In this document: piece by piece, positions 1-57,140 of the stretch
Numbering within the stretch: the first letter of the stretch is position 1
How the letters are laid out: each line of letters starts with the position of its first letter
From: Pyropia yezoensis
Lineage: Eukaryota > Rhodophyta > Bangiophyceae > Bangiales > Bangiaceae
DNA length: 64,000 nt
Direction: 5' to 3'
Assembly (NCBI GenBank): GCA_009829735.1
Contig: CM020618.1
Coordinates: forward strand, 15,296,568 to 15,360,567
Made by a program: the position numbers and the translations under genes
The notes under the pieces: generated by a model
Databases searched by the model: none
Told to the model about the DNA's origin: nothing
What the model saw: only the letters and a program-made list of their open reading frames with translations

Positions 1-2205
1 GTGCTCGGTCGTGGAAAAGTTCTTCTCAGCTGGATTCAAGACGCGACTGTAGTAGCCTATCGGGAGAAAGTGCCCATCAGGTTGCTGCTGGAGTAGTGAG
101 CACCCCACCTGGACGCCACAGGCATCCGTCTCCAGAACAAACTGGCCCTCCCGCTTGGGTAACGCCAGTACTGGAGTGGTGGTCAGGCGCTTCTTGAGCT
201 CTTCGAAGGCCGCGGTCTGCTTCTCGTCGAACACCGGGAGTTGTGCGGGAAGCTTCTTGCTGGTCAGCTTGGTCAGTGGCCGGGCAATCAGAGCATAGTC
301 CCGTACGAACCGGCGATAGACGTTGCACATACCGAGGAAGCTCTTGAGTTCCGTCTGGGTTTTGGGTTGCCGTGCATGCCGGAGGGCCTTGATGTTCTTC
401 TCATTGACTCGGAGCTCCCCCGGACTCAGCACATGCCCCAGATACTCCACCTCAGTCTCAAACAGGTGGCACTTCTCGGCCTTGAGGGTAACTCCAGCCT
501 TGGACAGGAGGGCCAGGACCTCCCGAAGGTGCTCCAGGGGTTCCGCTGGGGTCTTGGAGAAAACGATAATGTCGTCCAGGTAGACCAAACATGTTCTCCA
601 CCTTAGCCCGGACAGGATGATGTCGATGGCTCTTTGGAAGGTTGCCGGAGCATTGGTGAGACCAAAAGGAAGACGCTTGCACCGGAATAGTCCCAGGTGG
701 CACGTGAAGGTGGTCTTGTCCTTGTCCTCGTCAGCCAGAGGGATCTGCCAGTAACCGGCATTACAATCCAGCGTCGAGAAGAGGGTGGCATCACCAAGAA
801 AGTCGAGGCAATCATCCATCCGGGGTATCGGGTATACGTCCTTGACTGTCATCTCGTTCAGGCGCCGGTAGTCAACGCAGAAACGGAAGTGACCGCCGGT
901 TTTCGGGACGACTACCACCGGGAAAGCCCACTCGCCATCAGACGGCTCGATAACATCCATCTTGAGCATCTTGTTAACCTGCTTCTCAATCTCATCCCGG
1001 CGATGAGGTCCGGCCCGATATGGTTGCATGTGTACTGGCTTAGCTTCCGGCTTGAGTTGAATCCGGTGTAGAGTGGCGTCCATCTTGCCCAGCTCTCCCG
1101 ACCACAGGTGCCGATAATCCTGGAGAAGCTTCTCCAGTGCCTCCTTCAAGTCGGGAGGGACATTTTCTTGCTTGACCTTCGGCATCCCGGGTGGTGCTTG
1201 TTCGGGTTTCGGAGTAGCGCTGCCAGCCTGCTCTTGGTTCGCAGGTACGTCTAAGGCCGTCAAGTTGGATGCCAGTTCTTGTTGCAGGTTCAGGAGGTCT
1301 TCCTTGCTCATAGCACGGGCGGATCCCCGGTAAGGCTCTGCTGTACCAACTCGGGTGCCCTTGGCGAGGGTTATTGGCTTCCGGCTCACGTTGACGATTA
1401 GCACCGAGAACGGGGTGTGCCTTTCTACCTTCTTGTGATGTCCGTGGGCCAAGTATAACCGGTGTTTCGCCAGAAATTCCTTACGTCCGTAGATCAGGCA
1501 TTGACCTGCAATCCGGGTCGTTACTTGAACCTTGGTCTCCGAGCGAGGAGGTAGGAGCACCGGTTTGAAGAGAGTCAAGGTAGAGGGTGGGATGCGTTCC
1601 CTCTTGCTCTTGGCTACACGAACCTTGGCGTCCAGATGTTCCAATACCGGTGACAAAAACCCATGGTTGAACTGGACCTTCCCTTCTCCGGGTAGGATGC
1701 TCTTGACATGCTGCTTCTGGAAGTCCCAGCCTAGGATGAGGGGGACTGATAGGGTCTTGACTACTAGAAAGGGAAAAAGCATTGGTTCATTGTTGACATA
1801 GATGGCGACAGGAAGACGGCCAAGCGGTCGTAGGGTTTGACCCGAAGCGTCGACGATATGGGTCCGGGTAGGCGCTCTCCAGGCATGTCGACGCCAGCCC
1901 GGAGGTAACAGGTTCTCAGTGATGACGCTTGGTCCGGCTCCCGTGTCAACCACCGGCGTAACAGCTTGGGGGAGGCTATCCCCCACACGCATACGAGCAT
2001 TAATCTTGAGGTTTTCTTTACGCAGGACGAGCAATGTCCCCTTGAACAAACAGGGTGTCCAGGCGGCTACCGGTTGAGCAGGTAACCGCCGTCCTTTCTC
2101 CCGGCACGCAAGGGGGGAACAGGTAGAAGTACCCTGCCGTTGGAGGTTCGGGAAGACACTTGGGGAGAGCGCCTGCCCTACTCGTTTCCCGGGTCCGAGG
2201 AGTCC
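1..2205 (-). CDS. pol: pol polyprotein (protease, reverse transcriptase, RNase H), partial
   Basis: The frame opens at 2205, overlaps the gag end by 28 nt and sits at minus 1 relative to gag. It runs toward base 1 with no stop in the segments I translated (about 2205-1650 and 1200-1), and the frame is the same at 2205, 2100, 600, 360 and 120. Near 1945 is the aspartic protease motif VVDTGAGPSVI, followed by a flap-end motif LILGWDF. Reverse transcriptase follows, with FCVDYRRLNEM, STLDCNAGYWQIP, LPFGLTNAPATFQRAID and the catalytic LVYLDDIIVFSKT near 580. The RNase H start is near 120 (DACGVQVGCSLLQQQ). Synthesis most likely needs ribosomal frameshifting from gag. The product copies element RNA into DNA inside virus-like particles. 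Integrase is outside the window. Confidence 0.88.
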
Positions 2206-3938
2206 TTAGAGGTTTCGGTCTCCAGGTCACAGTCCGTAGGAGCTTCCCTTGCCAGAGCCTCCGTGATGCTCTGTAAGGTTGCCACTCGGATTGCGTGTAC
2301 CTGTGCCTTGTCCACCTTGGAGGGTGCCCGCCGGTCAGCCCAGTTGACCGCCTTTGCAAACACCAGTCCTTGACGCTTGAGTTTCTCCTGGAGGTCCTTG
2401 GGAATGGTCGGGCACTGGTAGGACATGTGATCCTCCTTCTGGCACAGCCAACAAGACCGGAACCGCTGGTTCTTGACTTGCTTGGGGGCGACCAGGGATG
2501 GTTGCTCCTTAGAAACGAAGCCGCCCCACTTGTCCCCTGACCCCATGGGTGAGGCCTCGCCAACTGCGAGTACTGGTACAGGGCTATCACCTCCCTTATA
2601 CTTGTCGGGTCCGGGTCGAACTCGCGACAACGGCTTGGGAGTTGATACCATGGGAGCTTGGAGGGCCCTGGCTTGCCGGTACTTGCCCTGGGTGTAGGCC
2701 ATCAACTGCTGGAAGGTATGTTCTTGATGTTCCTGGTTGTAGTTCTCCGCATCCACTTGAAGATATTCAGGAAGCCCTTCCGAGAAGATCATCTTGAGCC
2801 TGTCCTCAGGGTAAACGTTGCCACAAGCATCGCTCATCTCCCGGACACGACGGGCGAACGCCTCTGGAGTCTCTTGTCTTTCCATGGTTGCCCGGTTCAG
2901 CCTGCCGACTGCTTTACGCAGAGAGTCCGCGTCAGCGTAGTTGGACAGGAGCCAGTTGACCGCTTCCGGATAACTCGCGACGGTACGTCCGACAATGTGT
3001 CCGGCAGAGTCTGGTAGAACCTGTGCAAACCGCTGTTCCGCTTCTCCGGTCATGAAGTTAACCAGGAGGTAGAGAGCCTTGCCCTCGGACACATCGTTGT
3101 CATTGCATGCCTTGACAAACCGGCGCAGGAAGGCAAAGATAAGCGCCGGTCTCTTCCCGGAAAACTTAGGATGTCCCCCGAAGCTCGGCTGCATTCGCCG
3201 GTTCAGGGACGCCATCTTCTTGGCCATCTTCCGGGTGTAACCTTGGTCTTGGTTCTCCAGCCGGTAGTTACCCCAATACGTGACCTTGTTCAGGGTGGCA
3301 TCTCCCACTTGGTGGGCAGGGAAGTCAAACTCGACTAGCCTGCGCCGGGTGGGACCGGGAGATGCATCCCAATCATATCCCTCCTCAGAGCTGGAGGAAC
3401 TGGTCTCGCTGGTGCTAGAGCGACGGCGATGACGCCGACGCCTTCGGCTGCTCCGGTTACCGGTCTTGGAGCTCCCCGCCCCATAGGATGCAAGGGGAGG
3501 AAAAGCTTGGCCGGTCCCAGGAGTCGAGGTCTCAGGGAGACCCGTAGAACCAGTCACAACGGTGCCTCTGGCATCGCTAGTGCCCACAGGAAGAGGTGTA
3601 TACACCCAGCTGCCATGTGTGGGTCCAGGAGTAAACACACCAGGGGCTATCCCTGGAGGTTGAGGAGTAGAACCGACAGGAGGGAGACGTCTGCTGCGAG
3701 CGGACTCAAACGCCGTTGACCCCGGGGTGGCTCCCACAGGAGGAACAGCTGGAGGAACGGGAGCAGGTGGTGCTTGGCCGCCTGTGGACTCCAGTCCGCT
3801 ACCGGATGTCACGCCCAGGTCTGCTTCACCCGTAGGGAGAACGCCGGGTTGGGCACCGTCCCCCGCGGTCACCAGGGATGCGTCAAGGGACGCGGGGTCT
3901 ACCCCTTCGGGCACCGTCGTGCCAGGGAGGGTAGCCAT
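2178..3938 (-). CDS. gag: gag polyprotein of a Ty3/gypsy element
   Basis: 586 residues from the ATG at 3938. I chose this start because it has the same CCAACATGGC context as the gag start of the element at 36730. The open frame extends upstream to 4061 but without a better start. The first 200 residues are Pro/Gly/Ser/Thr-rich, then a serine/arginine stretch (SSRRRRRHRRRSS) and an acidic serine run. The retrotransposon gag (capsid-like) domain follows, with the motif FAFLRRFVKACNDNDVSEGK, and a CCHC zinc knuckle (CWLCQKEDHMSYQC; C-x2-C-x4-H-x4-C) near residue 510. The protein should form the particle and bind genomic RNA. The stop is TAG, one sense codon after a slippery heptamer. Confidence 0.9.
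   Translation of the reverse strand: MATLPGTTVPEGVDPASLDASLVTAGDGAQPGVLPTGEADLGVTSGSGLESTGGQAPPAPVPPAVPPVGATPGSTAFESARSRRLPPVGSTPQPPGIAPGVFTPGPTHGSWVYTPLPVGTSDARGTVVTGSTGLPETSTPGTGQAFPPLASYGAGSSKTGNRSSRRRRRHRRRSSTSETSSSSSEEGYDWDASPGPTRRRLVEFDFPAHQVGDATLNKVTYWGNYRLENQDQGYTRKMAKKMASLNRRMQPSFGGHPKFSGKRPALIFAFLRRFVKACNDNDVSEGKALYLLVNFMTGEAEQRFAQVLPDSAGHIVGRTVASYPEAVNWLLSNYADADSLRKAVGRLNRATMERQETPEAFARRVREMSDACGNVYPEDRLKMIFSEGLPEYLQVDAENYNQEHQEHTFQQLMAYTQGKYRQARALQAPMVSTPKPLSRVRPGPDKYKGGDSPVPVLAVGEASPMGSGDKWGGFVSKEQPSLVAPKQVKNQRFRSCWLCQKEDHMSYQCPTIPKDLQEKLKRQGLVFAKAVNWADRRAPSKVDKAQVHAIRVATLQSITEALAREAPTDCDLETETSKDSSDPGNE
2184..2190 (-). other. programmed minus-1 frameshift site at the gag/pol junction
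   Basis: In the gag frame the reading is CCG GGA AAC GAG TAG, giving the X XXY YYZ heptamer G GGA AAC. A minus-1 slip here enters the pol frame, which is open from 2205. The same heptamer lies at the same distance from the gag stop in the element at 38664. Slippery heptamers of this class are established in retroviruses and luteovirus-like RNAs. No obvious pseudoknot is visible directly downstream. Confidence 0.8.
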
Positions 3939-4129
3939 GTTGGTCTCTTGACAGCCACAGTCCAGTTGCCTGCGTGTCCAAAGATCGTCAGACCACAAGA
4001 GAGGGGTTGGAGAGCCAGGAATGGGATTCCCGTGAACGGGTGCAAATAATTCCCAAACCACAGAAAAAAACAGAACAGGAACAACCCAACCGCTGCTCCC
4101 AAATGTCTCTTCTCAAACACTCCAATCAT

Positions 4130-4146
4130 CCCCTGCTGCTCCACCA
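4130..4146 (-). other. primer-binding site of the minus-strand element
   Basis: TGGTGGAGCAGCAGGGG on the minus strand, 4 nt inside the LTR end. It is identical over 17 nt to the site at 36613-36629 in the complete element. Read as the complement of a tRNA 3' end it gives CCA, discriminator A, a 7-nt acceptor strand and a T-stem with the conserved C61, so a real tRNA primer is plausible. I cannot name the tRNA. Confidence 0.8.
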
Positions 4147-4150
4147 AATA

Positions 4151-4473
4151 TGTGGTATAAAACTCGATCCTCTCAGACACGTGTCTATATCCCTCGGGGG
4201 AAAGGGACAGGTAACATAGAAAGTGGAACTACGAGAATGGTATGCCTGTTGCCTCACGTGCCTGCTCGCAGAGCAAACAGATACGCACGGTAGTGCACAC
4301 GGGGAAGAGGAAAGCAAACGCGCAGTTGTCTTTTTCCTGAGGGCGCGGGCCAAGGGCGCCTCGCTGTCCCTCTTAACGTGCATCTGGGGGAGCCTCGGCA
4401 CGTTGGCCAGGTAGCCCCCCCATAACCCCGAGTGGCCCCGACCCGAGTCTAACCTCGTCAGGTCGGGGGCCAC
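4151..4473 (-). repeat. 5' long terminal repeat, outer edge approximate
   Basis: The inner edge reads CCACA before the primer site, like the ACA end of the LTR at 45523. The likely outer edge is a TG near 4473 (4500 is possible). The repeat contains a palindromic AGACACGTGTCT at 4175-4186 next to a TATA-like stretch, and a second CACGTG at 4255-4260. Its partner LTR is outside the window, so the length of about 320 bp is an estimate. Confidence 0.55.
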
Positions 4474-4713
4474 TATCACTACTAATTCTATTCCCACTCA
4501 CTAATCTCACACTCAAATTCTCTCAAATCAAGTCCCTCACAAGTATGTAAAAACCCATCAGCAATCCCTCTCTCACGTGTGGATAGTGTAGTCCACCGCA
4601 TCCCAGTGCCGGGCACGGGCCACGGCCGCCAACCATCACCACACGGCGGGCGTGTTCTGGCACCTGGTGCCCTCTGGTTGTAGTCCCGGGTCGGCGCCAA
4701 GTCGGGGCCAGGG

Positions 4714-5891
4714 ATGCTACAGGGCACCCTGGGGCCCCTACCGGAGACATATAGCGGCAACCTTTTCCTGCTCATTATTTGTGACCGGTTCTCCAAGTTC
4801 ACTTGAGCAATCCCACTGAGGACCATTACGGCCCTGGATGTCACGTCGGCCTTCTGCGAGTATTGCATAGCTGTCTATGGCTCTCCGGACTCCGTCTTGA
4901 CTGACAACGGTCCCCAGTTTGCATCCATGTTCTTCCAAGGAATCTGTGACCTGATGGGTATCAAGAACTTGTTTCCTAGGACGTACCACTCTCAAACGAA
5001 TGGTCAAGTGGAACGATTCAACCGGACCCTGGTGGACATGCTTCGTCACAACGTTGAGGAGCATCAAGAAGACTGGGACGAGCTCCTGGCCGTCCTCACT
5101 CCAGCCTACAACTCTCGTGTTCACTGGACGGCCGCGGTAGCTCCTCAAGACTTTGTCACCCCGAGGCGGCTGACCAACTTCTCCCCGGAAAGAATACCGG
5201 AAGGTCTCCAACCTGCCCTGAGGCCGGGTCCCAAGGCGAAGGACGAGTTCCTGGAACAACTGAAGCTCCATCTCCCACAAGTCAAGGAGTCAATCGCGAA
5301 GACCCATGAGCGATCAAGCGGGACTTTGACAAAGGTTTCCGGGAGCAGAACAAGGAACTGGGTGATGGCGACTGGGTTTTTGTGGATAACCACAGCAAGA
5401 CCCGGGGGAAGCTGGACCCCAAGACGGATGGGCCCTACGAAGTACTGAGCACGGAAGGCTGGACGGTCCTTTTAGACGTGGATGGCTCCCCGTACCGGGT
5501 GAGTAGTGATCACGTCACTCGAGCTCCACCGCCAAGCAAGCGGGACCTGACCCGGCGTAAGCGCGCCGCAGTACCCTGGTTGTCCCGACAAGAAGGCCGA
5601 GAATACGTCTACTTCAAGTTTGTAGACCATGCCTGGATGGAGGGACGCCTGTACCTGCGCGTGCGCTGGCTCGGCTTCGACCCATCTGATGATACCTGGG
5701 AGCCATCCAACCGGTTACCCATTGCTGATGTCTGTGCCTAAGCCCGGCGGAATGAAACTGAAGGAAACCCAGTGGCCAAAGCTAACAAGATCCTGGAGTC
5801 AGACTCGGAGGACGACGAGAAGGAAGAAGCTGACCGGGGCCTGTCGGACGAGTCGAGCTCGGCAACAACGTACGAGGAACATGAAGATTAA
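4714..5891 (+). pseudogene. decayed chromovirus integrase and chromodomain fragment
   Basis: A truncated pol tail that starts inside the integrase core (LGPLP, then FLLIICDRF). It keeps the second catalytic Asp (TDNGPQFAS) and the Glu (TNGQVERFNR), but the first Asp is not preserved at the truncated edge. A TGA interrupts the frame at about 4804, an indel shifts it near 5310, and the chromodomain follows (YVYFKFVDHAW, LYLRVRWLGFD, DDTWEPSNRL). A TAA at 5739-5741 then stops it, but the same frame continues as an acidic tail (SDSEDDEKEEAD) to the TAA at 5889-5891. It is related to the pol tail at 41099-42661 but diverged. It lies head-to-head with the 5' LTR of the minus-strand element, so it is a separate, older insertion. 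Confidence 0.85.
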
Positions 5892-6037: not shown

Positions 6038-6958
6038 TTACTCCCGGCGCGCGCGCTGCGCCGCAGATGCATCCTCCAGCGCCTCACCAGCTGCACGACG
6101 GGACCCCGAGAATGAAGGGATGGCGTAATATGGCGGTCGAGACACCCCGGCATACTCCGCCACCGGAACAACACTGGTAGCAGCCAGACGCTCCCGCTAC
6201 TCCAGGTATGCCCGCCGGCGCTCCTGGAAACTCATAAAGGTCCTTGACCAGCGCTGGGCCAAGCCATGCCGAGTCGAGGTCGCAAGGAGCTCGCCGACCA
6301 CCGGACTGTCCGACATCTGGCCGCTGTCCGCACAAGCAAATACCTGGTCAACCACGTCGTTCAAGACGCTGGCGTACGTGCCCAGCGCCAAGGAAGATCC
6401 GACGCCCTCTACCTGTACCGGAAGTCGGTCCTGCTGGTCCTCGATCATGCCCACGTCCTACCGGTCACAGGAGGGGCCACCTTGAGTCAGGTACCAGTCA
6501 GGCACCCGGAAGCGGGAAAGACGCAGCGTCGGAACCGGAGTCTCGAACCGACCGGACGGCGCCACACCGGGACGGCTAACACCGACGCCAGAGACAGGAG
6601 TACCAAGCTCCAGCTTAGGCACGGAACCACCTCCAGCCGTAGACGCCGCAGGAGGAAGGGCCCCCGAGGTAGAAGGCGACCGGGTGGTGCTGCCCGGAGC
6701 AACGCCAAGAGCAGAAGCCGGCAAACGCGGCGCCGGAGGAGCCTGAAAAACCGGTGCAGGAGGAGCCTGATGCACAGGCGCTGGCGGAGGCGGGGCCAAC
6801 GGTGCAGCAGGAGCAACCGGAGGAGCTTGACCACCCGTTGAAGCCCGACCAACCGCTGCAGCCCACCCCGTCTCTTGAACCGGCGGACCAGATGGCAGCA
6901 GGTCCAAGGCGGCCAGCGCAGGAAGACCTCCCGGCTGCGGCCACGCCGGCAACGGCAT
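6038..6958 (-). pseudogene. decayed minus-strand ORF convergent with the chromovirus fragment
   Basis: One frame runs from an ATG at 6958 to a TAA at 6038-6040, broken by TAG codons at 6458-6460 and 6194-6196. The first half is Pro/Ala/Val-rich (APPAPVFQAPPAP and similar). The second half looks like a real folded segment (DQQDRLPVQVEGVGSSLALG, QRWSRTFMSFQERRRAYLE). It ends 146 nt after the end of the plus-strand integrase/chromodomain fragment. That is the same place and orientation as the antisense ORF in the complete retrotransposon (187 nt after pol), so it may be that element's own antisense ORF. The sequences are too different for me to call them homologous by eye, and a gag-like origin is also possible. 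Confidence 0.4.
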
Positions 6959-7986
6959 CGCCAGCTGCACCTTGGCGGGAGAAGCCTGGGAATGGGACAG
7001 CTGGCCTTGGGGGCCGACGTGGTCGACCAGCCAGCGGTCGGCCGCTCGTCCATGGTGCTGAAAGAATGGGTTAAACAGGGGGGGGAGGGGTGGGAGGGGG
7101 GGGGGAGGAGGCCGCGGGAGCAGGCACAACAAGAAAGAGAGATGGTGCAGGGTGGGGTGCGTGGTCGGCCGGTGCGCGACAGTGCAGTGGTGGACAATGG
7201 GAACCAGGCATGACAGGGGCGCATGCGCGGCCACTGCTGGGACCCGCGTGCGGCTCAGATCGCGGCGCGGCAGTCCAAACGAAGAGAAGCGCGCGCGTGC
7301 CATCGGTGAAGCCTCTGTAGGTCGGGCACCTTGCTCTCTGGGCGCTCCGGAGCGCGGTTTGGGCGGACGCTGCACCGCCGGGAACCGTTCCTTGGCGTGG
7401 AAGAAAAGGCGCCAACCGATGGCCGCCCATCGTCGTTGGACGCACTCCGTTTCCTTCGATGGCAAACAGACTGCGCTTAGTCCGTTTCTGGCGTCAGAAT
7501 CCTCGTCTGGCACGCGGAAGACCTCCAAAAATGGCACCCAAAAACCGCCTCGAATGAGGCGAATCGCCTCAAATGAGGCGGTCAGTAGAATAGACACTAG
7601 CCCTGCGATTTGATCACATAACACCATGTGTCACCGCTCCGACCGTGACCTCGTTGGTTCTGACATTGGTGTGCGTCAGAGAGACTAACGTCCTCGAATC
7701 GAAACGGCCAAACACGTCGGGTTCCGAAAGAGAGGATGACTGTAGCCCCCCTCACGACAACAAGTCCTTCGTCCTCGTTTGTCCCGATAGTACGACGATA
7801 GTCCGACCACTCAGAGGCATACACGTAAGCACACGTGGCGTTCTAGATTGAATCGCTTAAGACCGATAGTCGACATTGGTGGCTGTGCCCGAAGTGCTAT
7901 AAGTCCTGCATGGCGGAAACTTCTGCGCGGCTGGGTACTTGAAATCGTCGACTTTCTTGAGCTCAATGAGCTGTTGCTGGCCCTAA

Positions 7987-36141: not shown

Positions 36142-36610
36142 TGTGGCAGTATTGACCCCCAGGTAGGGGGGCAACACGTGCCATGCAAGGGGCGGCAGGC
36201 CACTAGCCTGACCCGTTCCTCCCCCTGCATTTGGGTCCATATTCCCTAAGTTTGGGATAGTTAGCTTAGTAGTAAATCCAACTTGGATTTGAGGGTTTTC
36301 TGCATTTATCGTCTTGAATTTTCGTGTGGCCCGGTGGGCAGGTGCTGGGGTGGGAGATTCTGAGTGGCGAGATTCTGAGGGGACCCTGGGGGGATAAGGG
36401 GAGGGACAGCGGGGCTTGGCCTCGCTTCCCCGTCCCGACCAAGAAACTGTTGGACCACACACCATCTTCTTGTTTGTCAGTGGGGGGATTGCCCCACAAC
36501 AGGGATAGAGTGTGTGCGACTTGCACTTCTTCCGGTTCCCCCGACACGGGAGGCAGCCCTTGTGCACCGCCCCAACTTGGGTGTCGCGTGTGCAAGAGGT
36601 TTTTGCCTCA
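36142..36610 (+). repeat. 5' LTR, 469 bp
   Basis: Starts TGTGGCAGTATTG and ends GTTTTTGCCTCA. Contains CACGTG at 36175-36180. Identical to the 3' LTR except for T versus A three bases from the end. Confidence 0.95.
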
Positions 36611-36612
36611 TT

Positions 36613-36629
36613 TGGTGGAGCAGCAGGGG
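36613..36629 (+). other. primer-binding site
   Basis: TGGTGGAGCAGCAGGGG begins 2 nt after the LTR. It is identical to the site of the other element at 4130-4146. Its complement has the geometry of a tRNA 3' end including the conserved T-stem C61. Confidence 0.85.
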
Positions 36630-36729
36630 ACAGAGGTAAACTTTACCTCCGGGTGCACCCGGGTGTAGGGGGCCCTCTGTCTCAGAGGAACGGTGGACTT
36701 GGACCGTGTCATACGGATCGTTAGCCAAC

Positions 36730-38676
36730 ATGGCCGGTTCGGACCCCCCGTCGTCTGGGGAGTACACGGGTGACGCACGTACTTCAGTGCCTTCTAATAC
36801 TGGTGAGACACAGGTAGGTTTACCTGGGGTCGCCGAGGGACTGGAGGTCCCTCAAGCCAGCAGGACTGGAAGTGCGGGCGGGCAACAGGCCACCCTGACT
36901 CAGTCGGGAGTTCATTCGGGTGACACTTCTGATGTGGGTGGGCCGAAGTCTGGCCACCGCGTGGTATACTCAACGGGAACGTCCCAAGGTGAGAGGACTG
37001 TCCCCGCGGGTTCCACCCGGGTTGGAGCCAACTTTGGCATGGAGCCGTCGCCAACTAGGCTTTCGGAGGACGGCGGACCTCCGTTGGTCGGCGATGGGCT
37101 CGCGCCCATGCCCCCGGTTGAGACCCCTGAGGATCGTGGTTACCCCTCAGGTGGACTCCCGGAGGCGGACCGAGACTCAACTGGAGTCGACAATCCACTC
37201 CTCACGGAAACTGTCCGTCGGGAGGCGACCAATGTGTTACGGCAGACTTTGCCGGACCTGGTGGTCACGATGACGAATACTATTCTGAATCAGATTGTGG
37301 CGAGTTTGCCAGATGGCCTTAATGTCCAGACCGGATTGGGGCTTTCGAGCCCGCAGGCACAGGGGGAATCCCTCCTTACGCCTATCTCGGGTCGCCCCGA
37401 ACAGGGGGCGACCCCCGTGACACCCAACGAGGGAGCCACACCATTCTCGGTGGGGCGTACGCCCTTCACGGGGGAGTTCCCCTCGGAAACGCCGGCGGCT
37501 ACACCAAGCTCGCCGCGACAGACAACAGGCACTGCGGGTCAACTCACCCCAGTGCCTCAGCGGCTTTTCCCTCAACGTGAGGTGCCGCCCAAGATCCAGG
37601 TAGCCAACCCGGTCTACCAGAGGATCTTTGACTGGGAGACCTACGCTCTCCACAACAAGTCGGTGGCGTATGGCCCTGTCCAGGCCCGAGCCATGGGTCG
37701 TGCCAAGAAGATTGCACTTCACTCTTTTGGGCACAAAGCGGAGTGGGATGGAACTCCCCCCCTCCGTGTCTTTGAGTTCCTACGTCGTTTCACAAAAGCC
37801 TGTGACGACAATGCCATAAGTGAAGGCATGACTTTCTATATGCTACAGGAGTTTACGAAGGGCGACCTCCGGACCGAACTTATGTCCGTCGTGCCCAGTT
37901 CCTCAAGTGGAGGCGCTGGTGAGGTGACGTCCTATTTGGAGCTCGTCAACTGGTTGTTGAGAGCCATGGTGGATAAAGCAGCGTTGGCTTCTCAAGTTGA
38001 GGAGTTTACCCAAGCTCACCAGGAAGAAGCTGAGGACGAGTTGTCCTTTGCGGAGCGAGTTCGTACGCTCAACAATCTTTGTGGGTTTCTTCATCCACAA
38101 GCTGTGGTGAAGAGTCGGTTTGTGGAGGGACTCCATTGGTCAGTCCGGATGGAGACCCGGGAGCATACCACTGCCCGGGCGACCCTGGCCGAGCTGGCTA
38201 GGTTGGCCTACCGCAGAGGTGAGGCCTACCGCAAGTTTCGGGAGGAACAACGCCAGGAGCGTCAGACCAAGTTGGCCAAGGAACGCGAGGAGGCGCGCCA
38301 GGCCAGAGAGTTGAGAGAGACACGCCGAATCCGCAAGGAAGGGGTAGTAGCTGCCGTGGGAACTTCCCAGGGTACCTCTTCGTCTTCCCCAGTCGGGAAA
38401 ACCTCTCCGGGAACTGACAACCGGTGTTGGAACTGCAACTCCGATGGACACTGGGCATGTGATTGCCCCAAGTTGAGTAAACGCATTCAACAACTTGTTA
38501 AGAATGTGAGTAAGAAGTCGGCTACGAACGAAGTACGTTCACGCCGCGAGGGTGGACCTCGACCGGTAGTGGCAGTCGCCACACCCTCGGCGGGGGGGGC
38601 GGACACGTCGTCCTCGGACTCGTCGTCTTCCCCTTCGCCCTCAGATTCGGACGCCAAGTCGGCGGGAAACCAATGA
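36730..38676 (+). CDS. gag: gag polyprotein of the complete element
   Basis: 648 residues from the ATG at 36730 (MAGSDPPSS), 120 nt after the LTR. The first 270 residues are Pro/Thr/Gly-rich and low in structure. The gag domain follows, with the motif VFEFLRRFTKACDDNAISEG at about residue 340, equivalent to the capsid domain of the element at 2178-3938. Then comes an Arg/Glu-rich coiled segment (REEQRQERQTKLAKEREEA) and a CCHC zinc knuckle (CWNCNSDGHWACDC; C-x2-C-x4-H-x4-C) near residue 570, then an acidic Ser/Asp tail. It is open throughout, in contrast to pol. The gag stop TGA overlaps an ATG of the pol frame, but the conserved feature shared with the other element is the slippery heptamer just before it. 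Confidence 0.92.
   Translation: MAGSDPPSSGEYTGDARTSVPSNTGETQVGLPGVAEGLEVPQASRTGSAGGQQATLTQSGVHSGDTSDVGGPKSGHRVVYSTGTSQGERTVPAGSTRVGANFGMEPSPTRLSEDGGPPLVGDGLAPMPPVETPEDRGYPSGGLPEADRDSTGVDNPLLTETVRREATNVLRQTLPDLVVTMTNTILNQIVASLPDGLNVQTGLGLSSPQAQGESLLTPISGRPEQGATPVTPNEGATPFSVGRTPFTGEFPSETPAATPSSPRQTTGTAGQLTPVPQRLFPQREVPPKIQVANPVYQRIFDWETYALHNKSVAYGPVQARAMGRAKKIALHSFGHKAEWDGTPPLRVFEFLRRFTKACDDNAISEGMTFYMLQEFTKGDLRTELMSVVPSSSSGGAGEVTSYLELVNWLLRAMVDKAALASQVEEFTQAHQEEAEDELSFAERVRTLNNLCGFLHPQAVVKSRFVEGLHWSVRMETREHTTARATLAELARLAYRRGEAYRKFREEQRQERQTKLAKEREEARQARELRETRRIRKEGVVAAVGTSQGTSSSSPVGKTSPGTDNRCWNCNSDGHWACDCPKLSKRIQQLVKNVSKKSATNEVRSRREGGPRPVVAVATPSAGGADTSSSDSSSSPSPSDSDAKSAGNQ
38664..38670 (+). 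other. programmed minus-1 frameshift site at the gag/pol junction
   Basis: The gag frame reads GCG GGA AAC CAA TGA. G GGA AAC is the same X XXY YYZ heptamer as at 2184-2190 and stands one sense codon from the stop in both. A minus-1 slip enters the pol frame directly. An alternative is termination and restart at the overlapping ATGA, which the other element does not have. Confidence 0.8.
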
Positions 38677-41600
38677 CCGTTGGAGCTGGCCGTCCTAAGC
38701 TCACAACGGCAGCCTCGGCCAAGTGGGCCAAGAGGACGAATCAACCGTGCCGGATACTGCGGCGACCTAAGGGAGTCGGCCCACCTCGGGTAGGACTCCC
38801 CAAGAACGTAAACCCACGTCGGGTCATCGCGGTGCTGACGGGTGAGAACTTCCAGGTGGCTGGACGGGTGCAACTAGCCCCCGGCCGTGCCTGTTGTGCC
38901 CGTATCGTAATTGATACCGGGTCAGGAGCCTCCTTGATACGCAAGTCGCAATTACCAAAGGAGATGAAGCTCCAACGCTGGAAGTCAAAAGCTGACCATC
39001 TGATCGACATGAATGGTGGGGTACTTCCCATCGTTGGTGCCGTGACCCTACCAACTAGGTTGGGAACCCATGAGGTCGACGTGACCTATGGAGTAGTCGA
39101 GAATATATCGGTACCCCTGCTTCTGGGTACCCCTTATGTTGTAACACAAGTGCCTTTGATTTGTGGCCCTGAGTATTGGGTCAAGTTGATGAATGGGGAG
39201 ACCATCCCCATCCTTGGTAAGGGAAAGTCTGTGGCTCCTGTGACAGTCTCACAGTCGAAGCCTGTTTGCTCTGTGAGAGAAGGGTTTACTGCTACCCTGC
39301 GTTTAGCCCGTAAAGTCACGTTGCCCCCCAACTCGGTGGCGCACGTTGACGTTGTAACTGACTATACGGGCAACGGGTTGGTTCACCCTCACCCCCGTCT
39401 TGCTCGCAAGCACCAAGTGCATGTTGCCCTTGGCACGATGGACTCCAAAGCCGGGGTTCCGTGGAGGATCCAGGTTATGAACCTGAGCTCGACGCCCAAG
39501 TATTTCAAGTCGGGAGCCAAGTTCGGCTATATCGACCAACATGAGGGACCGGTAGTAGCGGTCACCCTCAATGCGGGCGCGAGTAGCGACCCGAAGTCCG
39601 GAAAGGAGAAGCACCAAGCCAAGTCGGCCGCCTCTCCTCGGCCCCATGTGAACATGGAGAGTGTTCCACCCAGGTTGAGGGTTCAAGTGGAACGCCTCTT
39701 GGACCAATATCACAAGTTGTGGGATGGTCAATTGGGACTCATGAGAGCCACCCAACACCGGATCGAGTTGAAGCCCGGTGCACCCCCTATACGCCAACAA
39801 CCGTATAGGGGACGACCCCGTTCAAGGGCCCTCGTTAAGGAGCAAGTCGCTCGCATGGAGGCCCTCGATGTGATCGAGGCCAGCAACGCCGAGTGGGCGA
39901 GTCCGGTGGTTATTGTCCCCAATGTTGATGGGACCCCCCGGTTCTGTATCGACTACCGTAAGCTCAACGAGAGCACGGTGAAGGATATCATCCCCTACCT
40001 AGGATGGACGACTGTCTGGACTCTCTGGGGGAGGCAAACGTGTTCTCAACCCTGGACTGTAACGCGGGGTACTGGCAAATTCCCATTGCCCCGGAAGACA
40101 GGCATAAAACTACCTTTACCTGTCACTGTGGTACCTACCAGTGCAAGCGACTACCGTTTGGACTGTGCAACGCGCCGGCAACTTTCCAGCGCGCCATAGA
40201 CATGATTCTGGCTGGAGTACGGTGGCAGATCTGTCTCGTGTACCTAGACGATATCATTGTGTTCTCCCGAAGTCCGGAGGAGCACATTGGCCATCTTGGC
40301 CAGGTGTTCAAGCTACTTGCTGACGCCGGTGTGTCACTGAAGGCGAGTAAGTGCCACCTCTTCACTCAAGAGGTGGAATACTTGGGACATGTTGTCCGTC
40401 CGGGGCGCCTCAGTGTCAACGAGAAGAACTTGAGGGCCATCCGTAAGGCTCAGTACCCTCGGACCCAGACCCAGACCCAGATGAGGAGCTTCCTCGGGAT
40501 GTGTAACGTGTACCGACGTTTCACCAAGGGCTTCGCCAAGGTGGCGAAGCCGCTGAATGAGCTAGTTAGCTCAACACTACCGAAGCACCTGCCTCCCCCA
40601 AGTCGGGTGGAGCAGGAATCCTTTGAGACTCTTCGGGACCTTCTGCTGAAGCCCCCTATCTTGGCTATTCCCAGGTTGGGAGGCTACTACATCCTGGATG
40701 TGGACGCTAGCTACGACCAACTTGGTTGTGTGTTGCTTCAGCAGCAGCCGGACAAGGAGTACTTGCCGGTGGGATACTTCAGCAAGGGGCTGAACTCGGC
40801 TGAGAAGAACTACGGAGTCACCGAGTTGGAAGGACTCGCAGTGGTGTGGGCGGTGACGTCACTTCGTCACTACCTAGAGGGTGAGAAGTTCCTCATCCGC
40901 TGTGACCACCGCGCGTTGCAGTTCATCTTCAAGATGGATTGCACGAACACTCGTCTCAACCGGTAGAGGGTGCGACTGGCACCCTTCAACTTTGATATTT
41001 AGTACCGACCTGGCAGGCAACATGCCCTTGCCGACGGCCTTTCTCGGGTACCTACCGAGGCGCTGGACACTAACTCAGTCGATGAGGACATCCCCATCGT
41101 GGGAGTAGTCACGCGCTCGGGTCAGGCGTTGGACCCCGAGGCGCCAGGGAACAAGAAGTACTTGCCCCTGTCCCTAGACGAGGTGGTGAAGGCCCAGGCC
41201 GAGGACCCCTTCTGCAAGTCGCAGAGGGATACGCTGGATACGGTGGCGGAGATGCAGTTCTTTATCGGAGACGATGGCCTCCTCTTGAGGAGGGGGGTAT
41301 TCCAGGGGACCGAAGAACTTGTCGTCCCCGCATCCCTCAAGGACAGTATTCTTGAGAGGGAGAATAATGCTCCCACAGGTGGACACCTGGGGTCTAGTAA
41401 ACTGTACCAGACCCTGAGGACCAGGTACTACTGGCCGTCCATGGTGGTGGACATCTACAGTTGGGTGGCTGCCTGCACAAGTTGTGCGCAGAACCGTCTG
41501 ATGGAACGGCGGCCTACTACGGCTATGTTACTGTTCCCGGCCAAGGAGCCCTTTGCCGCGTTGGCAATGGACATCCTTGGGCCACTGCCGGTGACCGAGG

Positions 41601-42661
41601 AGGGCAACCAGTTCCTCCTGGTCATCTGCGATCGCTTCACGAAACTTACGCGAGGGATCCCTCTGGCGGAGATCACGGCCATGTCGGTCGTGTCAGCCTT
41701 CCTCGATCACTGGGTTGCCGCGTATGGCATCCCGGACAGTACACTATCGGACAATGGACCGCAATTTGCGTCCGTACTGTTTCAGGGAGTGCTGGATATG
41801 TTGGGGGTTAAGGCAAACTATGCCACCCCTTACCACCCACAAACTAATGGGCAGGTGGAGCGCTTCAACAAAACTATTGTTCGGCAGCTGCGCCACTATG
41901 TGAGTGAGCACGTGAAAACGTGGGACCAATACATTTCTATTCTTACGACTGCCTACAATTCGCAGGTTCACTCATCTACCGGGGAAGTACCCCTCGCTTT
42001 TGTGACCCCCCGTCGCGTGCGGTCTATCGACGTGCGGCGGCCGCTCCCAACTAGGGAGGATGGTGGCAGTACGCCTACTCCTACTGAGAGTAAGGCGGAG
42101 TTCGCTGCTAGGCTTGAAAAACTCATCCCTAAAGTCAGGGCTGAGATGGACAAAGCGCAAAAGCGCTACAAGCGTACTTTTGACAAAAAGGTGCGCAATG
42201 CTAAGCATGTCCCCGAGCAGGGTGACTGGGTACTGGTTCACTCACACACCCCAACTGGGGGTAAGTTGGTATTCCAGACGAAAGGGCCGTACCAGGTCCT
42301 TCGTACTGATGGGCGGCGCTTCACCATCGAAAGTGACGATGGGGTCCGCACAGTAAACGGACAGGACGTGGCCAAAGTTGCACCACCGCCTGCAGACGAC
42401 CCAGCTTGGGCGCGTGCGCTGGAAGCGTGGCGCCTGCCCTCGCTGCCTGCGGCCAAACATGGCCCGCAGGAGTACGTGTTCGATAAGTTCATCGACCACG
42501 GATGGGATGAGGACACTAACCGCCTCATGTTGAGGGTGCGTTGGTTCGGCTATAAGGCCAAGGATGATACGTGGGAATATATGGAGGACCTTCCCGCTGA
42601 GAAGGTCCGGGCATACTGTGTCCGGAATGATATATACCCTAACAGCCCCCCCTCAACGTGA
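38673..42661 (+). pseudogene. pol: pol polyprotein with three disabling lesions
   Basis: Domains in order: aspartic protease (VIDTGSGASLI, then LLLGTPYVV), reverse transcriptase (FCIDYRKLNES, LDCNAGYWQIP, LPFGLCNAPATFQ, LVYLDDIIVFS), RNase H (LDVDASYDQLGCVLLQQQ), integrase and chromodomain. The integrase core has LAMDILGPLP, SDNGPQFAS and TNGQVERFNK with all three acidic residues. Its zinc finger keeps GHLG and C-x2-C but lacks the usual first His. The chromodomain ends the protein (YVFDKFIDHGW, LMLRVRWFGY, DDTWEYMEDL). Breaks: a one-base shift at the C run 39992-39995 between RT motifs, and in-frame TAG codons at 40964-40966 and 41000-41002 in RNase H and the linker after it. The frame is open again to 42661. 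Confidence 0.9.
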
Positions 42662-42847
42662 GGGAAGGCCGAGTAACAGTGCCAAGAGAGTGCTTCAAGT
42701 CGAAGTGGTACGCAGGGTGGCTTTTAGCTACACCCCTAACCCTCACACTCTCACAACGAAGGCAGCTGCCAACTAGGCATGCATGCTAGACTCTCCAACC
42801 CCACGGCCCTCGCCCTCACGTGGAGGCGAGCGGCGAGACTCCCGCCG

Positions 42848-44716
42848 TTAACGTTCCCCACCAGTCGGCGGGGCCGGCGGCTCCAAGTCGGAACCGTCGC
42901 GCCCCTCACGGTCGCGCAAGTGGCGACGACCGCGGCTACCCTTCTGCTTGGTCTTGCGCGCAAGTTGGCGACGCAGACGCCGGACCGACTCCGACTCTGA
43001 CGGGGTAGAGGACTCCGAGACGGAATAAGACAACTCGTCTCCCGACACGGAGGGAGAGCGCCGCGAGCGTCGGCGACGACGGCGAGGAGGCGAGTATGCC
43101 CGGCTCGCTCGACGTTTGCCACGCCCAAGCGGGGCTGGCTGGGGCACAATAGCCCCGATGCGAGCCAACTCGGCCGTCATAAACCCCGCCACAGACTCGC
43201 AACTCGCGGTCGCCACCGCAGTACGAACGCGCTCCTCAAGTTGAGGAGTCTTGGAAGCCTGAAGGGATGCGGTCGACGCGGCCAACCAGGAAATGGTGCG
43301 CACCAACGTGGTGATCATCATCTCTGAGGTCAGAGGCGTGGCCGGTAACACCAACTTGGGATAAACCGTCAGGAGAGTGGCCCCCAAGTTGGGGGACACC
43401 GGGGTGGACGACTCAACGGCCACGCTTATCGGGATGTCCCCGTGCGGCTGGTAGGGGACAGGAGGAAGCGGAGGGGCACGCCGAGGTGGCGGTGCCCGAG
43501 TGTAACTGCGACCCTTACTCGGGGCCCCCGCAGTGGGTTGAGTCATATGGTCATCGTGAGAGGGCACGGCCATCACTATGGCCTTGTCCGGGGGCGGCGC
43601 AGTGTGGCGATCCACTTCCGGGGCATACGGGTAGTCCCGGATGCCCAGCCCCTCTCGTAGTACCACACGGCCGTCGTGAAGTTCACGACCGACCCATACG
43701 AACTGGCGAAGTGCGCCATCGTCCTTCGGCCCGCGGGTGGGGCGGCGCAACTTGTGCTCGACACTCTCCCACTCGATGAACTTGTGGAGACGGAGCATCT
43801 CCTCAAGTAGAGTGAGTTGTCCTGATGAGCACCCCTCAGCAACTAGCTGAGGGGTGAGCTGTTCCAAACCTTGGATAAGCCGAAGGGGAAGATGCCAGAG
43901 CATCCCCCGCCGCTGGACACAAGACACCCAGGTCGACATGACCTCGAGGAGCCACTGGGTTTCCAACATGGCCCACACCAGGTGATCCGGGCTAGCCGTC
44001 AACATGACGGAGCCGAAGTGGTCGAGCAACCGTGGTAGCAACGCAGGGAACCCGTAGGGGACCTCAACTTGAGGCCACCACTCGGGCTTCTTGGGGTAGT
44101 ACTGCTCCTTACTAGCAGCGGACTGCTGCGTAAACTCAAGTTGAGCCGAGGTCACCAAGTAGGGACCTCGCCGGAAGTCCTTCTCCATCCGCACATCAAA
44201 GTGATGAGTGTGCGGATCGGCCTCGTGAAGGTACGGGGGGCGAGTTGCCACCGCGTCCCAAGTAAAGGTCGGCAAGTCGCCGGGACCCGGGGTAGTTCCC
44301 CCGCGGTCCACCATGGCCTTGGTCCGCTGCAAGTCTTCGACTTCGTCATCGTCCAGGAAGGCAAACTGGTCCGTCCTGAAGCCGGCAGGGAACCCGACCC
44401 AACGGGGATACTTCTCCCATAGGCGGTCCCATACTCGACTCATCGCTGTGCCAAGTCGGCCACAGCGAAGAACCGTCAACCCCTCCTCATATAGAGGCCA
44501 AGCGGGGTAGAACCACCGCCCCAAGGCCTCCCGTGGGATGACCCGGGACACCTCCGGGGGAGATCCCGCCGCCAACTCAACGTCGGGTGGCGCGGGAGTC
44601 CCATCCCCCGGAGCAACCGCGGAGCCCCCGCTGGAAGTCCCGGCGGGCGCTACACCGTAGGAGGCGTCCTCCATACGTTCATCCAAAGAGTCAGTCTCCA
44701 CCCCCGGGGTCACCAT
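42848..44716 (-). CDS. antisense ORF inside the retrotransposon, unknown 622-residue protein
   Basis: On the strand opposite to gag-pol, between the chromodomain (187 bp away) and the 3' LTR. The frame is open from 44887, and I take the ATG at 44716 (GAGCCATGGTGACC). After 90 Pro/Gly/Ser-rich residues comes a long ordered, probably helical domain with many Trp and Leu, for example GRWFYPAWPLYEEGLTVLR, MSRVWDRLWEKYPRWVGFP, LLPRLLDHFGSVMLTASPD, HLPLRLIQGLEQLTPQLV. The C terminus is basic and RS-like (RRRRRRSRRSPSVSGDELS) with an acidic serine run and a final Arg/Lys segment, so nuclear localisation is likely. No known domain is recognised. A transcript would have to start near or in the 3' LTR in antisense. 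Antisense ORFs at this position are known in some plant Ty3/gypsy families. Confidence 0.8.
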   Translation of the reverse strand: MVTPGVETDSLDERMEDASYGVAPAGTSSGGSAVAPGDGTPAPPDVELAAGSPPEVSRVIPREALGRWFYPAWPLYEEGLTVLRCGRLGTAMSRVWDRLWEKYPRWVGFPAGFRTDQFAFLDDDEVEDLQRTKAMVDRGGTTPGPGDLPTFTWDAVATRPPYLHEADPHTHHFDVRMEKDFRRGPYLVTSAQLEFTQQSAASKEQYYPKKPEWWPQVEVPYGFPALLPRLLDHFGSVMLTASPDHLVWAMLETQWLLEVMSTWVSCVQRRGMLWHLPLRLIQGLEQLTPQLVAEGCSSGQLTLLEEMLRLHKFIEWESVEHKLRRPTRGPKDDGALRQFVWVGRELHDGRVVLREGLGIRDYPYAPEVDRHTAPPPDKAIVMAVPSHDDHMTQPTAGAPSKGRSYTRAPPPRRAPPLPPVPYQPHGDIPISVAVESSTPVSPNLGATLLTVYPKLVLPATPLTSEMMITTLVRTISWLAASTASLQASKTPQLEERVRTAVATASCESVAGFMTAELARIGAIVPQPAPLGRGKRRASRAYSPPRRRRRRSRRSPSVSGDELSYSVSESSTPSESESVRRLRRQLARKTKQKGSRGRRHLRDREGRDGSDLEPPAPPTGGER

Positions 44717-45041
44717 GGCTCTCCCCAAGTTAGGGAGAGACGACCTGGCTGCAACTGCACGAGACACGCCTCGAGTTGAGGGGGGCTCGGATCGTGGGTA
44801 GATGGGTGGCCTCCCCAGCGTGGGGCGGCCCAGGGGAAGGTGAAGGGGATGTGTTGGTGATGGTGAAGTGAGAACCGGGGAGAGCAAGCTGCCGAGTGGG
44901 CAAGCTTGAGGAGAGGGGCGGTCAACGTGACCGGCTCCACATCCACGTTACGTACCCTAGGGGGGACAGCAAGTCGCGCCCCCCAACGCCGGACGTGCGT
45001 TTACGCACCCCCTCACAGGGCCGACCGGGTCGGTCGGAACT

Positions 45042-45054
45042 GAGGAGAGGGGAG
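45042..45054 (+). other. polypurine tract
   Basis: GAGGAGAGGGGAG directly abuts the TG of the 3' LTR, the expected primer site for plus-strand DNA synthesis. Confidence 0.85.
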
Positions 45055-45523
45055 TGTGGCAGTATTGACCCCCAGGTAGGGGGGCAACACGTGCCATGCA
45101 AGGGGCGGCAGGCCACTAGCCTGACCCGTTCCTCCCCCTGCATTTGGGTCCATATTCCCTAAGTTTGGGATAGTTAGCTTAGTAGTAAATCCAACTTGGA
45201 TTTGAGGGTTTTCTGCATTTATCGTCTTGAATTTTCGTGTGGCCCGGTGGGCAGGTGCTGGGGTGGGAGATTCTGAGTGGCGAGATTCTGAGGGGACCCT
45301 GGGGGGATAAGGGGAGGGACAGCGGGGCTTGGCCTCGCTTCCCCGTCCCGACCAAGAAACTGTTGGACCACACACCATCTTCTTGTTTGTCAGTGGGGGG
45401 ATTGCCCCACAACAGGGATAGAGTGTGTGCGACTTGCACTTCTTCCGGTTCCCCCGACACGGGAGGCAGCCCTTGTGCACCGCCCCAACTTGGGTGTCGC
45501 GTGTGCAAGAGGTTTTTGCCACA
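45055..45523 (+). repeat. 3' LTR, 469 bp
   Basis: Same sequence as the 5' LTR except ...GCCACA instead of ...GCCTCA at the end. Followed by TGTAC, against AGTAC before the 5' LTR. Confidence 0.95.
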
Positions 45524-46618
45524 TGTACGGGTGGGTGAAGCCAATAACCTCCTCCTGCAGTGGGACACTGGCCTGGGGAGCACCAGCCTCCCGCAACCGC
45601 CTCTGCAATGCACCACGCGCACCACCAGCATACCGCGGTCGCTAAGCCAGGGCGTCCTCGAATGCGGCCGCCGCCGTCTGACGCCCTTCCGCCACGTCGA
45701 TGGCTCCAAGAGGGCCCGGCGGCGGCTCGGATGGGCCAGCAGCACCGGAGGCGGCGCTGTCAGCAGCAAACGCTCCCAAAGAGCGCGCGACTGGTCCGCT
45801 CAATCCTTGGTCTTGGAGATCAGCAGCCACACCAGCCGCGGTGCGGACGTGAACGGAGGCGGCGGCACCCCCGAGGCCAGCTCCATCGACCACAGCGGAC
45901 TGGGTCAAGTGAGCCCTCAAAGGTCCTCCAGCTCGGGGGACAATGTCCCCCAAGCGGCGCTTAGCCACCTTGGCGCGCTCCTTCCGCTGGCGCACCGTCG
46001 GCGCCAACTTCTCCAACGCCGCCGCGACACGCTGCTGCATGGCCGCAGAATCGTGGCTCGGACAAGAAAAATGCACAGGACGCCCAGGTTTCAAGGGCGC
46101 CGCCAACGTGTCCACGGAGTGCCCCTTCCCACCGCTATGAGCGCAAGCAATCATGCAGGCGGCGCACGTGGCCGCCAGGCAACCGCAGAGGTAGTCCCCA
46201 GGGTGCAATAGAGGGCAGCGACGGGCATCGTGCCCCACCAGGCGGCATGCTCGGCACTGGTGCCCTGGCATGGCCCCTGCCAGAACAAAATAGGAAAGAT
46301 CGGATCACAGAGACACACCAAGGCACGAAGGAGCACAAAATCGGACGGTCAGGGGCTCGTGGACAGTTAGGTATCACGTCAGAGGTGCCTGCAACTGATC
46401 CCGCCCCGCTCTGTTTCGTCGTACGCCGACGGCAAGAAAGAGGAGAACGGGTGCACAGGCATATCATCTTGGGATGATCCAGCGGAGGACGCGTCGTAGG
46501 CGTCGGCGTCCGACATGATGCGCAACTGGTGCACGTCGTCGATGCCAAGGCGAGGATTGTGCGCGACTCGAGGTGGTCCGGCGATGGATCCGGCGCCAGC
46601 GACGGCGATGGCCGTCAT
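45524..46618 (-). pseudogene. 5' part of the split zinc-knuckle gene
   Basis: A first piece opens at 46618 (MTAIAVAGAGSIAGPP) and ends near 46380. A second piece from 46271 (MPGHQCRACRLVGHDARRC) has a CCHC knuckle (C-x2-C-x4-H-x4-C), a further Cys/His-rich stretch (CGCLAATCAACMIACAHSGG) and a basic helix (RQRKERAKVAKRR). A good splice acceptor, TTTTGTTCTGGCAG, precedes the second piece, so an intron of roughly 100 bp is likely. A TAG at 45642-45644 interrupts the frame, which then continues open (RPRYAGGARGALQRRLREAG, GFTHPY) to the retrotransposon edge. With the insertion and the nonsense codon it is not functional. A CCHC knuckle fits either a nucleic-acid-binding host protein or an older element's ORF. 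Confidence 0.65.
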
Positions 46619-55930: not shown

Positions 55931-56201
55931 AAATCCTTCCCTCCCTTCCACCCCCGTCCGCCCTCCCCCCCCACCCCACCCCCCGCCAAGCAGCCGTCCG
56001 TGTCCCCCCAACGTACCAATGCCACACGTCACCGCGGCGGGTTGTCGTTGACGCACCAGCGCCCCACACAGCGCACGGCGGCCGCTGCCCCCCAGCGCCA
56101 CCCCCCCCCCACCCCCCCCCCCGCCTCGCTGGTGGCCGCAAGCCGAGAGCAGCAGGGCGAGCGCCGCCCTGGTGGGAGGGACCACGAAGAAAAGAAAAAA
56201 A

Positions 56202-56701
56202 NNNNNNNNNNNNNNNNNNNNNNNNNNNNNNNNNNNNNNNNNNNNNNNNNNNNNNNNNNNNNNNNNNNNNNNNNNNNNNNNNNNNNNNNNNNNNNNNNNN
56301 NNNNNNNNNNNNNNNNNNNNNNNNNNNNNNNNNNNNNNNNNNNNNNNNNNNNNNNNNNNNNNNNNNNNNNNNNNNNNNNNNNNNNNNNNNNNNNNNNNNN
56401 NNNNNNNNNNNNNNNNNNNNNNNNNNNNNNNNNNNNNNNNNNNNNNNNNNNNNNNNNNNNNNNNNNNNNNNNNNNNNNNNNNNNNNNNNNNNNNNNNNNN
56501 NNNNNNNNNNNNNNNNNNNNNNNNNNNNNNNNNNNNNNNNNNNNNNNNNNNNNNNNNNNNNNNNNNNNNNNNNNNNNNNNNNNNNNNNNNNNNNNNNNNN
56601 NNNNNNNNNNNNNNNNNNNNNNNNNNNNNNNNNNNNNNNNNNNNNNNNNNNNNNNNNNNNNNNNNNNNNNNNNNNNNNNNNNNNNNNNNNNNNNNNNNNN
56701 N
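56202..56701. other. assembly gap of exactly 500 N
   Basis: Flanked on the left by an A-rich tract and on the right by a run of about 18 C. The round length marks a scaffold gap of unknown true size. Confidence 0.98.
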
Positions 56702-57140
56702 CCCCCCCCCCCCCCCCCGACGCACTAGAGGCGGCTGCCGCCTTCTCTCTCTTCCTTCCTCAGACGTCACCCCCACCTGCCAGGCACAGACCCGTGGCCG
56801 ACAGTCGGCCCAGCGACACACAGCGCGGCGCGGCGGGCGTCCCGCCGTCGGTGGGTCGTCCTCACCCCACCGCCCCCCAGCCCGTCCGCATGGGGGACGC
56901 CCCCCCCGGCCCCCGCCGCCGCTGCCGCTGCCGCTGCCGCTGCCGCCGCCGCCGCGCGCTCCCGTACCCGCAGCCGGGCGGGGGGGCGCAAAAGGAGCAA
57001 GGGGCGTGGCAGAGGAGGAAAGGGGAGGGAGGGCGTGGGGGGACAGCACAGCCCCACTGGCACAGGGGAATAGGACAAAAACCAGGGGAGGAGGTCTGGA
57101 AGGGGGGGGGGGGGGATACGGGGGATGGGATGGGGGGAGG

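Follow-up and report, generated by a model that had tools for sequence, protein, structure and literature searches.

An antisense accessory gene under purifying selection in a chromovirus of the red alga Pyropia yezoensis, with a counterpart in a distant second family

Chromoviruses of the red alga Pyropia yezoensis possess a protein-coding accessory gene that lies antisense to gag-pol, between the chromodomain and the 3' LTR. It is under purifying selection in one family (family 1) and occupies the same slot, in the same orientation, in a distant second family (family 2). The gene was recognised in a stretch of 64,000 nucleotides (the window), which harbors a family-1 element and the 5' part of a family-2 element. 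Taken as a whole, the explanation towards which we lean is that of a selected accessory gene, ancestral to both families, whose product would serve as a nuclear regulator of its own element.

The family-1 element is organised as follows:
36142-45524, plus strand: chromovirus element, family 1 (LTRs, Pfam domains)
36142-36611, plus strand: 5' LTR, 470 nt, preceded by GTAC
36706-38676, plus strand: gag, with a zinc knuckle just below the Pfam cut-off
38673-40199, plus strand: first pol frame, ending in the broken region, with a weak aspartyl protease match
40004-40966, plus strand: RT and RNase H frame, ended by a stop
41099-42661, plus strand: integrase with a C-terminal chromodomain (about 42482-42616; Pfam)
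45055-45524, plus strand: 3' LTR, 470 nt, followed by GTAC

This element is young, as its description in the initial annotation as a recently inserted chromovirus implied: the two LTRs differ at 1 of 470 sites and GTAC flanks both ends. The RVT_1, RT_RNaseH and rve matches are above the Pfam cut-offs and follow the Ty3/gypsy order, with RT and RNase H before integrase, and the Chromo match (E 3.7e-5, residues 462-506 of 520) scores 24.0 bits against a cut-off of 25.1, hence 1.1 bits under it. The pol of the window copy is broken, its RT frame being 334 codons long instead of 1,380 in many other copies. Of the three pol lesions announced, two were seen, a frame change before 40004 and the stop at 40964-40966.

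On the opposite strand, the antisense gene and its parts are:
42848-44716, minus strand: antisense gene, most likely CDS, from Met58 to the stop, 622 amino acids (dN/dS, codon usage, intact copies chosen by RT)
44717-44887, minus strand: open codons 1-57 of the 679-codon frame, probably 5' untranslated (pN/pS 1.04, bootstrap 0.59-1.84; dN/dS given below)
43583-44287, minus strand: most constrained core, codons 201-435, overlapping the stretch common to family 2 and the database protein P0004
42851-43117, minus strand: basic, serine/arginine-rich tail, codons 591-679, none being seen in family 2 or P0004
42773-42847, minus strand: equivalent of the extra C-terminal codons of most copies

The frame as first reported (42848-44887, minus strand) counts 679 codons from a TTG and is stop-free for 699 codons. 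High GC favors long frames, and others exceeding 300 codons are present in the window, so a frame opened by chance or by base composition, or one that is the passenger of an antisense RNA acting in double-stranded RNA silencing, has to be considered. However, among 1,500 simulated sequences (500 each from order-1, -2 and -3 Markov models of 42662-45054), the longest run is 416 codons and none reaches 679, and the five remaining frames of the stretch contain 14-25 stops each. The initial annotation also stressed that the frame stays open despite the pol lesions. It does, but this is weak evidence: at a rate of three lesions per 4 kb or so, about 1.5 would be expected over 2 kb, and the chance of finding none is about one in five.

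Codon statistics, another test set by the initial annotation, fit those of a coding sequence. When gag and pol pieces serve to train a codon table, the antisense frame is the only one to score positively (0.028 per codon), within the range of 0.019-0.070 obtained for these pieces when each is left out in turn, whereas the values of the five others lie between -0.08 and -0.17. Likewise, its synonymous codon usage correlates with that of gag-pol at 0.77, against 0.45-0.66 for the other five.

Selection was measured on the best 30 (L001-L030) of 65 scored genomic copies, forming 435 pairs. From Met58 on, dN is 0.024 and dS 0.0995, a ratio of 0.24, distributed as 0.28 for codons 58-200, 0.17 for codons 201-435, 0.33 for codons 436-590 and 0.22 for codons 591-679, while codons 1-57, upstream of Met58, reach 1.05. 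The shifted frames of the antisense strand yield 1.31 (+1) and 1.82 (+2), and the sense-strand frames, each of which holds 14-25 stops in the window, 1.11, 0.33 and 2.08; the value of 0.33 is expected, since that frame mirrors the antisense codon positions. Integrase gives 0.36 in the same loci, where some rows are poorly aligned and the largest distance is 0.29.

A second sample was chosen by RT and comprises 21 copies: 20 hand-picked across the 125 best RT rows, plus C1:15270714. These copies are young, as they are among the best RT matches. Conservation of the frame among copies, which the initial annotation had set as a test, is observed in 19 of the 21, where the frame measures exactly 724 codons from stop to stop; the exceptions, left out of the pN/pS set, are L047, which is frame-broken, and L049, which is partly lost. 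At one stage L047 was taken for a third, 50%-identical antisense family, an assignment that was rejected as it is a decayed family-1 copy. The 19 intact copies display a pN/pS of 0.22 for the antisense gene (codon bootstrap 0.13-0.40) and 0.11 for integrase (0.03-0.25), and comparing the window copy with them gives 0.22 (0.16-0.31) and 0.12 (0.07-0.18), respectively. From the pN/pS values in these RT-chosen copies, constraint on the antisense gene is about half of that on integrase. The upstream codons of the same copies are at 1.17 (0.57-3.75).

An earlier comparison had used P0001, a protein 92% identical to the family-1 product. It differs from the window protein at 47 of 576 positions, and the probability of meeting no stop is about 0.1, which is weak evidence of selection and is superseded by the genomic copies. 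The core holds 7 of these differences instead of the 14-16 expected (P 0.002-0.006), with P 0.056 when scanned over all windows. Altogether, the antisense frame is almost certainly a selected protein gene. With a dN/dS of 0.24 confined to this frame and 19 of 21 copies intact, a chance or passenger frame is extremely improbable; an RNA role alongside the protein is possible.

The family-1 translation start is most likely Met58 (ATG 44714-44716, context GCCATGG), because selection begins there and the relative P0001 begins at the same residue. The ATG is separated by 338 nt from the inner edge of the 3' LTR. At the other end, the frame of the window copy is shorter by about 25 codons than that of most copies: 26 of the 30 copies end at codon 705, allowing for the 1-2-codon offset of L003 and L010. 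The 2-kb extent originally proposed is thus retained as an open frame, with a start that is more likely Met58 than the TTG.

The genome analyzed (G000) is 107,475,971 bases long in 11 contigs, the large ones being of 43,592,136, 34,331,705 and 29,385,039 bases. The Pyropia yezoensis genome is described as having 65% GC (PMC7423979); the DNA of the window is at about 74-80%, except for a drop to 38% at 56001-57000. At least 65 copies of the family-1 antisense gene are present (65 of 13,044 candidates scored), those besides the window copy being 90-94% identical and nearly full-length. Forty-one of the 65, window copy included, are free of stops and 24 have at least one. No antisense homologue of their own was detected in the downstream stretches of three other chromodomain families (L053-L055), in a sampling of 150 scored among 2,351 candidates that is not a survey. 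L055 does contain an antisense gene of family 1, located on the opposite strand, and in L054 LTR and gag sequence of family 1 is recognised by eye. In another chromodomain family, copies are found about 6.6 kb apart on the same strand, in a tandem-like arrangement (G000 C2:32826304, 32832910, 32839553). Rows of some chromodomain families, spaced by 5.7-6.6 kb, would leave little room for an antisense gene.

The family-2 element occupies the minus strand of window positions 1-4730, its remainder being in locus L051:
1-2049, minus strand: family-2 chromovirus, part of pol, continuing in L051
2178-4061, minus strand: family-2 gag, 29.7% identical to family-1 gag over 320 amino acids
4150-4730, minus strand: family-2 5' LTR, 98.6% of 581 nt identical to the 3' LTR
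L051:5071-5651: family-2 3' LTR
L051:5635-7944, plus strand: family-2 antisense gene, 769 codons
L051:8090-10000, minus strand: family-2 integrase-chromodomain

The antisense proteins of the two families share 23% identity over 166 amino acids of the core (E 9e-9), as compared to 61% for RT, 46% for integrase and 30% for gag. This core similarity, together with the position of the genes, suggests that they very probably share a common ancestry, and the simplest reading would be descent from a common ancestor with the antisense gene diverging slightly faster than gag. Just inside the 5' LTR, at the place of the primer-binding site, 21 nt are identical in both distant families (36610-36630 and 4129-4149). 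Family 2 comprises at least 58 full-length copies (58 of 23,572 candidates scored), 97-99% identical besides the query, among which 42 lack a stop and 16 contain one. Its pN/pS values, from three copies only, are 0.74, 0.30 and 0.40. By analogy with family 1, its start may be at Met 5827, which is a guess; the codons before 5827 also yield 0.43 and 0.51 (two computable pairs of the three copies), hence selection settles neither this start nor strong constraint. At 6041-6988 of the window, minus strand, lie fragments that match the C-terminal half of the antisense protein of family 2 at 73% and 81% identity and are apparently the remnant of a related element.

When 5.8 billion proteins were searched, four homologues were among the matches listed: P0001 and, with the two-family alignment as query, P0002 (98% identical to family 2), P0003 (56%) and P0004 (34% to family 1 over 284 amino acids). 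Viral contigs scanned with the antisense protein and with RT revealed no relative. These matches bear on the proposal, raised in the initial annotation, that a host gene was captured by the element. Transduction is known in retroelements (PMC7264820), and the gene is large and devoid of a recognised domain, as a captured gene could be. Conversely, all four proteins among the matches listed are homologues of the two antisense proteins, and none bears the name of a host gene; according to the same source (PMC7264820), sense orientation is the usual one for captured genes; and since the gene is common to families whose RTs are only 61% identical, capture would not be recent. We consider this origin very unlikely, although a distant relative in the host could have escaped these capped candidate lists.

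The protein itself has few recognisable features. For six members of the antisense protein family, no Pfam family is matched at E<=1, PF04195 included, and no PDB chain at E<=1 with either the six-member alignment or the single protein, in agreement with the statement made at the outset that it matches no domain. Neither Pfam nor the comparison with gag reveals a zinc knuckle or a gag match. AlphaFold2 models, computed twice, are poor (mean pLDDT 37.5 and 45.8) and mostly helical, at low confidence. The basic, RS-like tail described initially exists in the family-1 proteins (window and P0001), but the alignment reveals that it is absent from the family-2 protein and P0004.

In the mechanism proposed here, the antisense gene would already have been present in the common ancestor of both families. 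It would be expressed from a dedicated antisense transcript initiated within the 3' LTR or close to it. The protein would be nuclear and would adjust how the copies of its own element are transcribed or silenced, as proposed for plant antisense ORFs. Among the conceivable roles, the countering of host silencing included, regulation of the element ranks first as the most likely one, by analogy, and the arginine-rich tail of family 1 and the nuclear location of the product of the maize Grande antisense gene, gene23 (PMC7264820), may both support it. A nuclear regulator is nevertheless put forward only tentatively. Several observations count against the overall explanation: no recognised DNA-binding domain, the poor models, the tail missing in family 2 and P0004, the many decayed copies, and family-2 selection values based on three copies.

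The protein could instead be an accessory structural or trafficking component, involved in particle assembly, RNA packaging or nuclear import. The mostly helical, low-confidence models, the basic tail of family 1 and a between-family divergence near that of gag (23% in the core, 30% for gag) would agree with such a role. The lack of any zinc knuckle or gag match does not, and the antisense orientation would uncouple its expression from that of gag-pol. We regard this role as conceivable, only slightly less likely than that of a nuclear regulator.

A regulator of its own element might recognise a DNA word, and the odd palindrome CAASTTG is a lead in this direction, though only a lead. It occurs 21 times in the window, for 5.0 expected and a maximum of 13 in 100 shuffles, and 19 of the 21 sites are inside the 9.4-kb family-1 element (e.g., 36279, 41478, 43237, 43385, 44065, 45192). 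The coding pieces of the element hold 15 sites versus 3.1 (largest 10) in 1,000 synonymous shuffles, and the antisense gene alone 7 versus 1.0. The sites are often accompanied by longer self-complementary arms that differ in sequence. Odd palindromes with arms of at least 6 number 12 versus 2.9 (largest 6), whereas even palindromes are at 33 versus 34 for arms of 4, 9 versus 8.9 for arms of 5 and 5 versus 2.6 for arms of 6. Copies L032, L033, L045 and L005 have 2-3 further sites each, including perfect palindromes of 19 and 21 bp; that of 21 bp ends 2 nt before the antisense ATG and is lost in the window copy.

In a first analysis, divergence was 4.5-fold lower at the motif sites than in the remainder of the gene (0.016 versus 0.071); this result was dropped because the window copy itself had served to select the sites. 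When other copies are taken as reference, motif diversity is not significantly low (P 0.18-0.64), nor is the number of shared sites significantly high (P 0.08-0.33), and family 2 exhibits no comparable palindrome excess. When all 6- and 7-mers of the coding pieces are compared with synonymous shuffles, CTCAAC (family-1 gag-pol) and CTCCAG (family-2 gag-pol) exceed the maximum of each of the 100 shuffles. For the antisense gene of family 1, CAACTTG passes the 95% point without attaining the largest shuffle maximum. No word emerges for the antisense gene of family 2, nor for two pol genes taken as controls, which are shorter and differ in power. A mutational origin of the palindromes is possible, for instance through template switching in reverse transcription. 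The antisense protein could be imagined as a factor, probably dimeric, that binds DNA sequence-specifically and has an anti-silencing or transcriptional role in its own family. It would recognise CAASTTG in the LTRs, gag, pol and its own gene and co-diverge with its word by family, as VANC does in VANDAL elements; we judge this reading unlikely.

Antisense accessory genes of LTR elements have been described mainly from flowering plants, and the same slot is used here in red-algal chromoviruses; no report of an antisense gene in the latter was found among the open-access papers listed. A 2011 survey by Steinbauerova and colleagues reportedly placed chromovirus extra ORFs only in the 5' regions of grass elements. 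The protein family that fills it here has no recognised domain, its purifying selection can be measured, and this selection locates the start codon. With its many young copies, the 107-Mb genome lends itself well to studying the role of such a protein.

HBZ of HTLV-1, a bZIP domain protein, is likewise encoded on the antisense strand at the 3' end of its retroelement. The likeness concerns position and orientation only, as no homology or domain was detected here and Pfam reveals no bZIP. VANC of the Arabidopsis VANDAL elements is a fast-diverging anti-silencing protein associated with a short DNA word that differs from family to family (PMC5735166). The parallel would be a family-specific enriched word, for which CAASTTG, in excess in family 1 and not in family 2, is a candidate; however, VANDAL is a DNA transposon whose motifs are described as residing mainly in non-coding tandem repeats (PMC5735166), whereas the candidate word here is dispersed and mostly coding. 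As for the elements themselves, the REXdb survey records that many Ty3/gypsy elements carry extra ORFs, and describes Chlamyvir, a clade of chromodomain Ty3/gypsy elements from algae (PMC6317226). That survey covered green plants (PMC6317226), and the present elements are likened to this clade by chromodomain type, not by clade membership.

The closest parallels are the plant antisense ORFs found between pol and the 3' LTR, as the initial annotation rightly pointed out. A review lists antisense ORFs in Grande, RIRE2, Retand, PvRetro13 and the fungal element Boty, with function unknown (PMC7264820), and in Retand elements, which such ORFs characterise, TRP28 is given as encoded by 97% of clusters (PMC11963269). 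Retand aORF-3R (TRP28, PF04195; maize Grande gene23 and rice RIRE2) resembles the present gene by its slot and by being kept in most copies of a family, but belongs to non-chromovirus elements of flowering plants, whereas here a chromodomain match, a red-algal host and the lack of PF04195 are observed. Boty of Botrytis cinerea carries an antisense ORF in the same slot outside plants (PMC7264820), in a fungal host, and is likened by description, not by sequence. Sequence searches suggest, short of proof, that the red-algal antisense protein is unrelated to those of plants. If so, this slot would have been occupied on at least two occasions, and antisense accessory proteins would be a recurrent solution.
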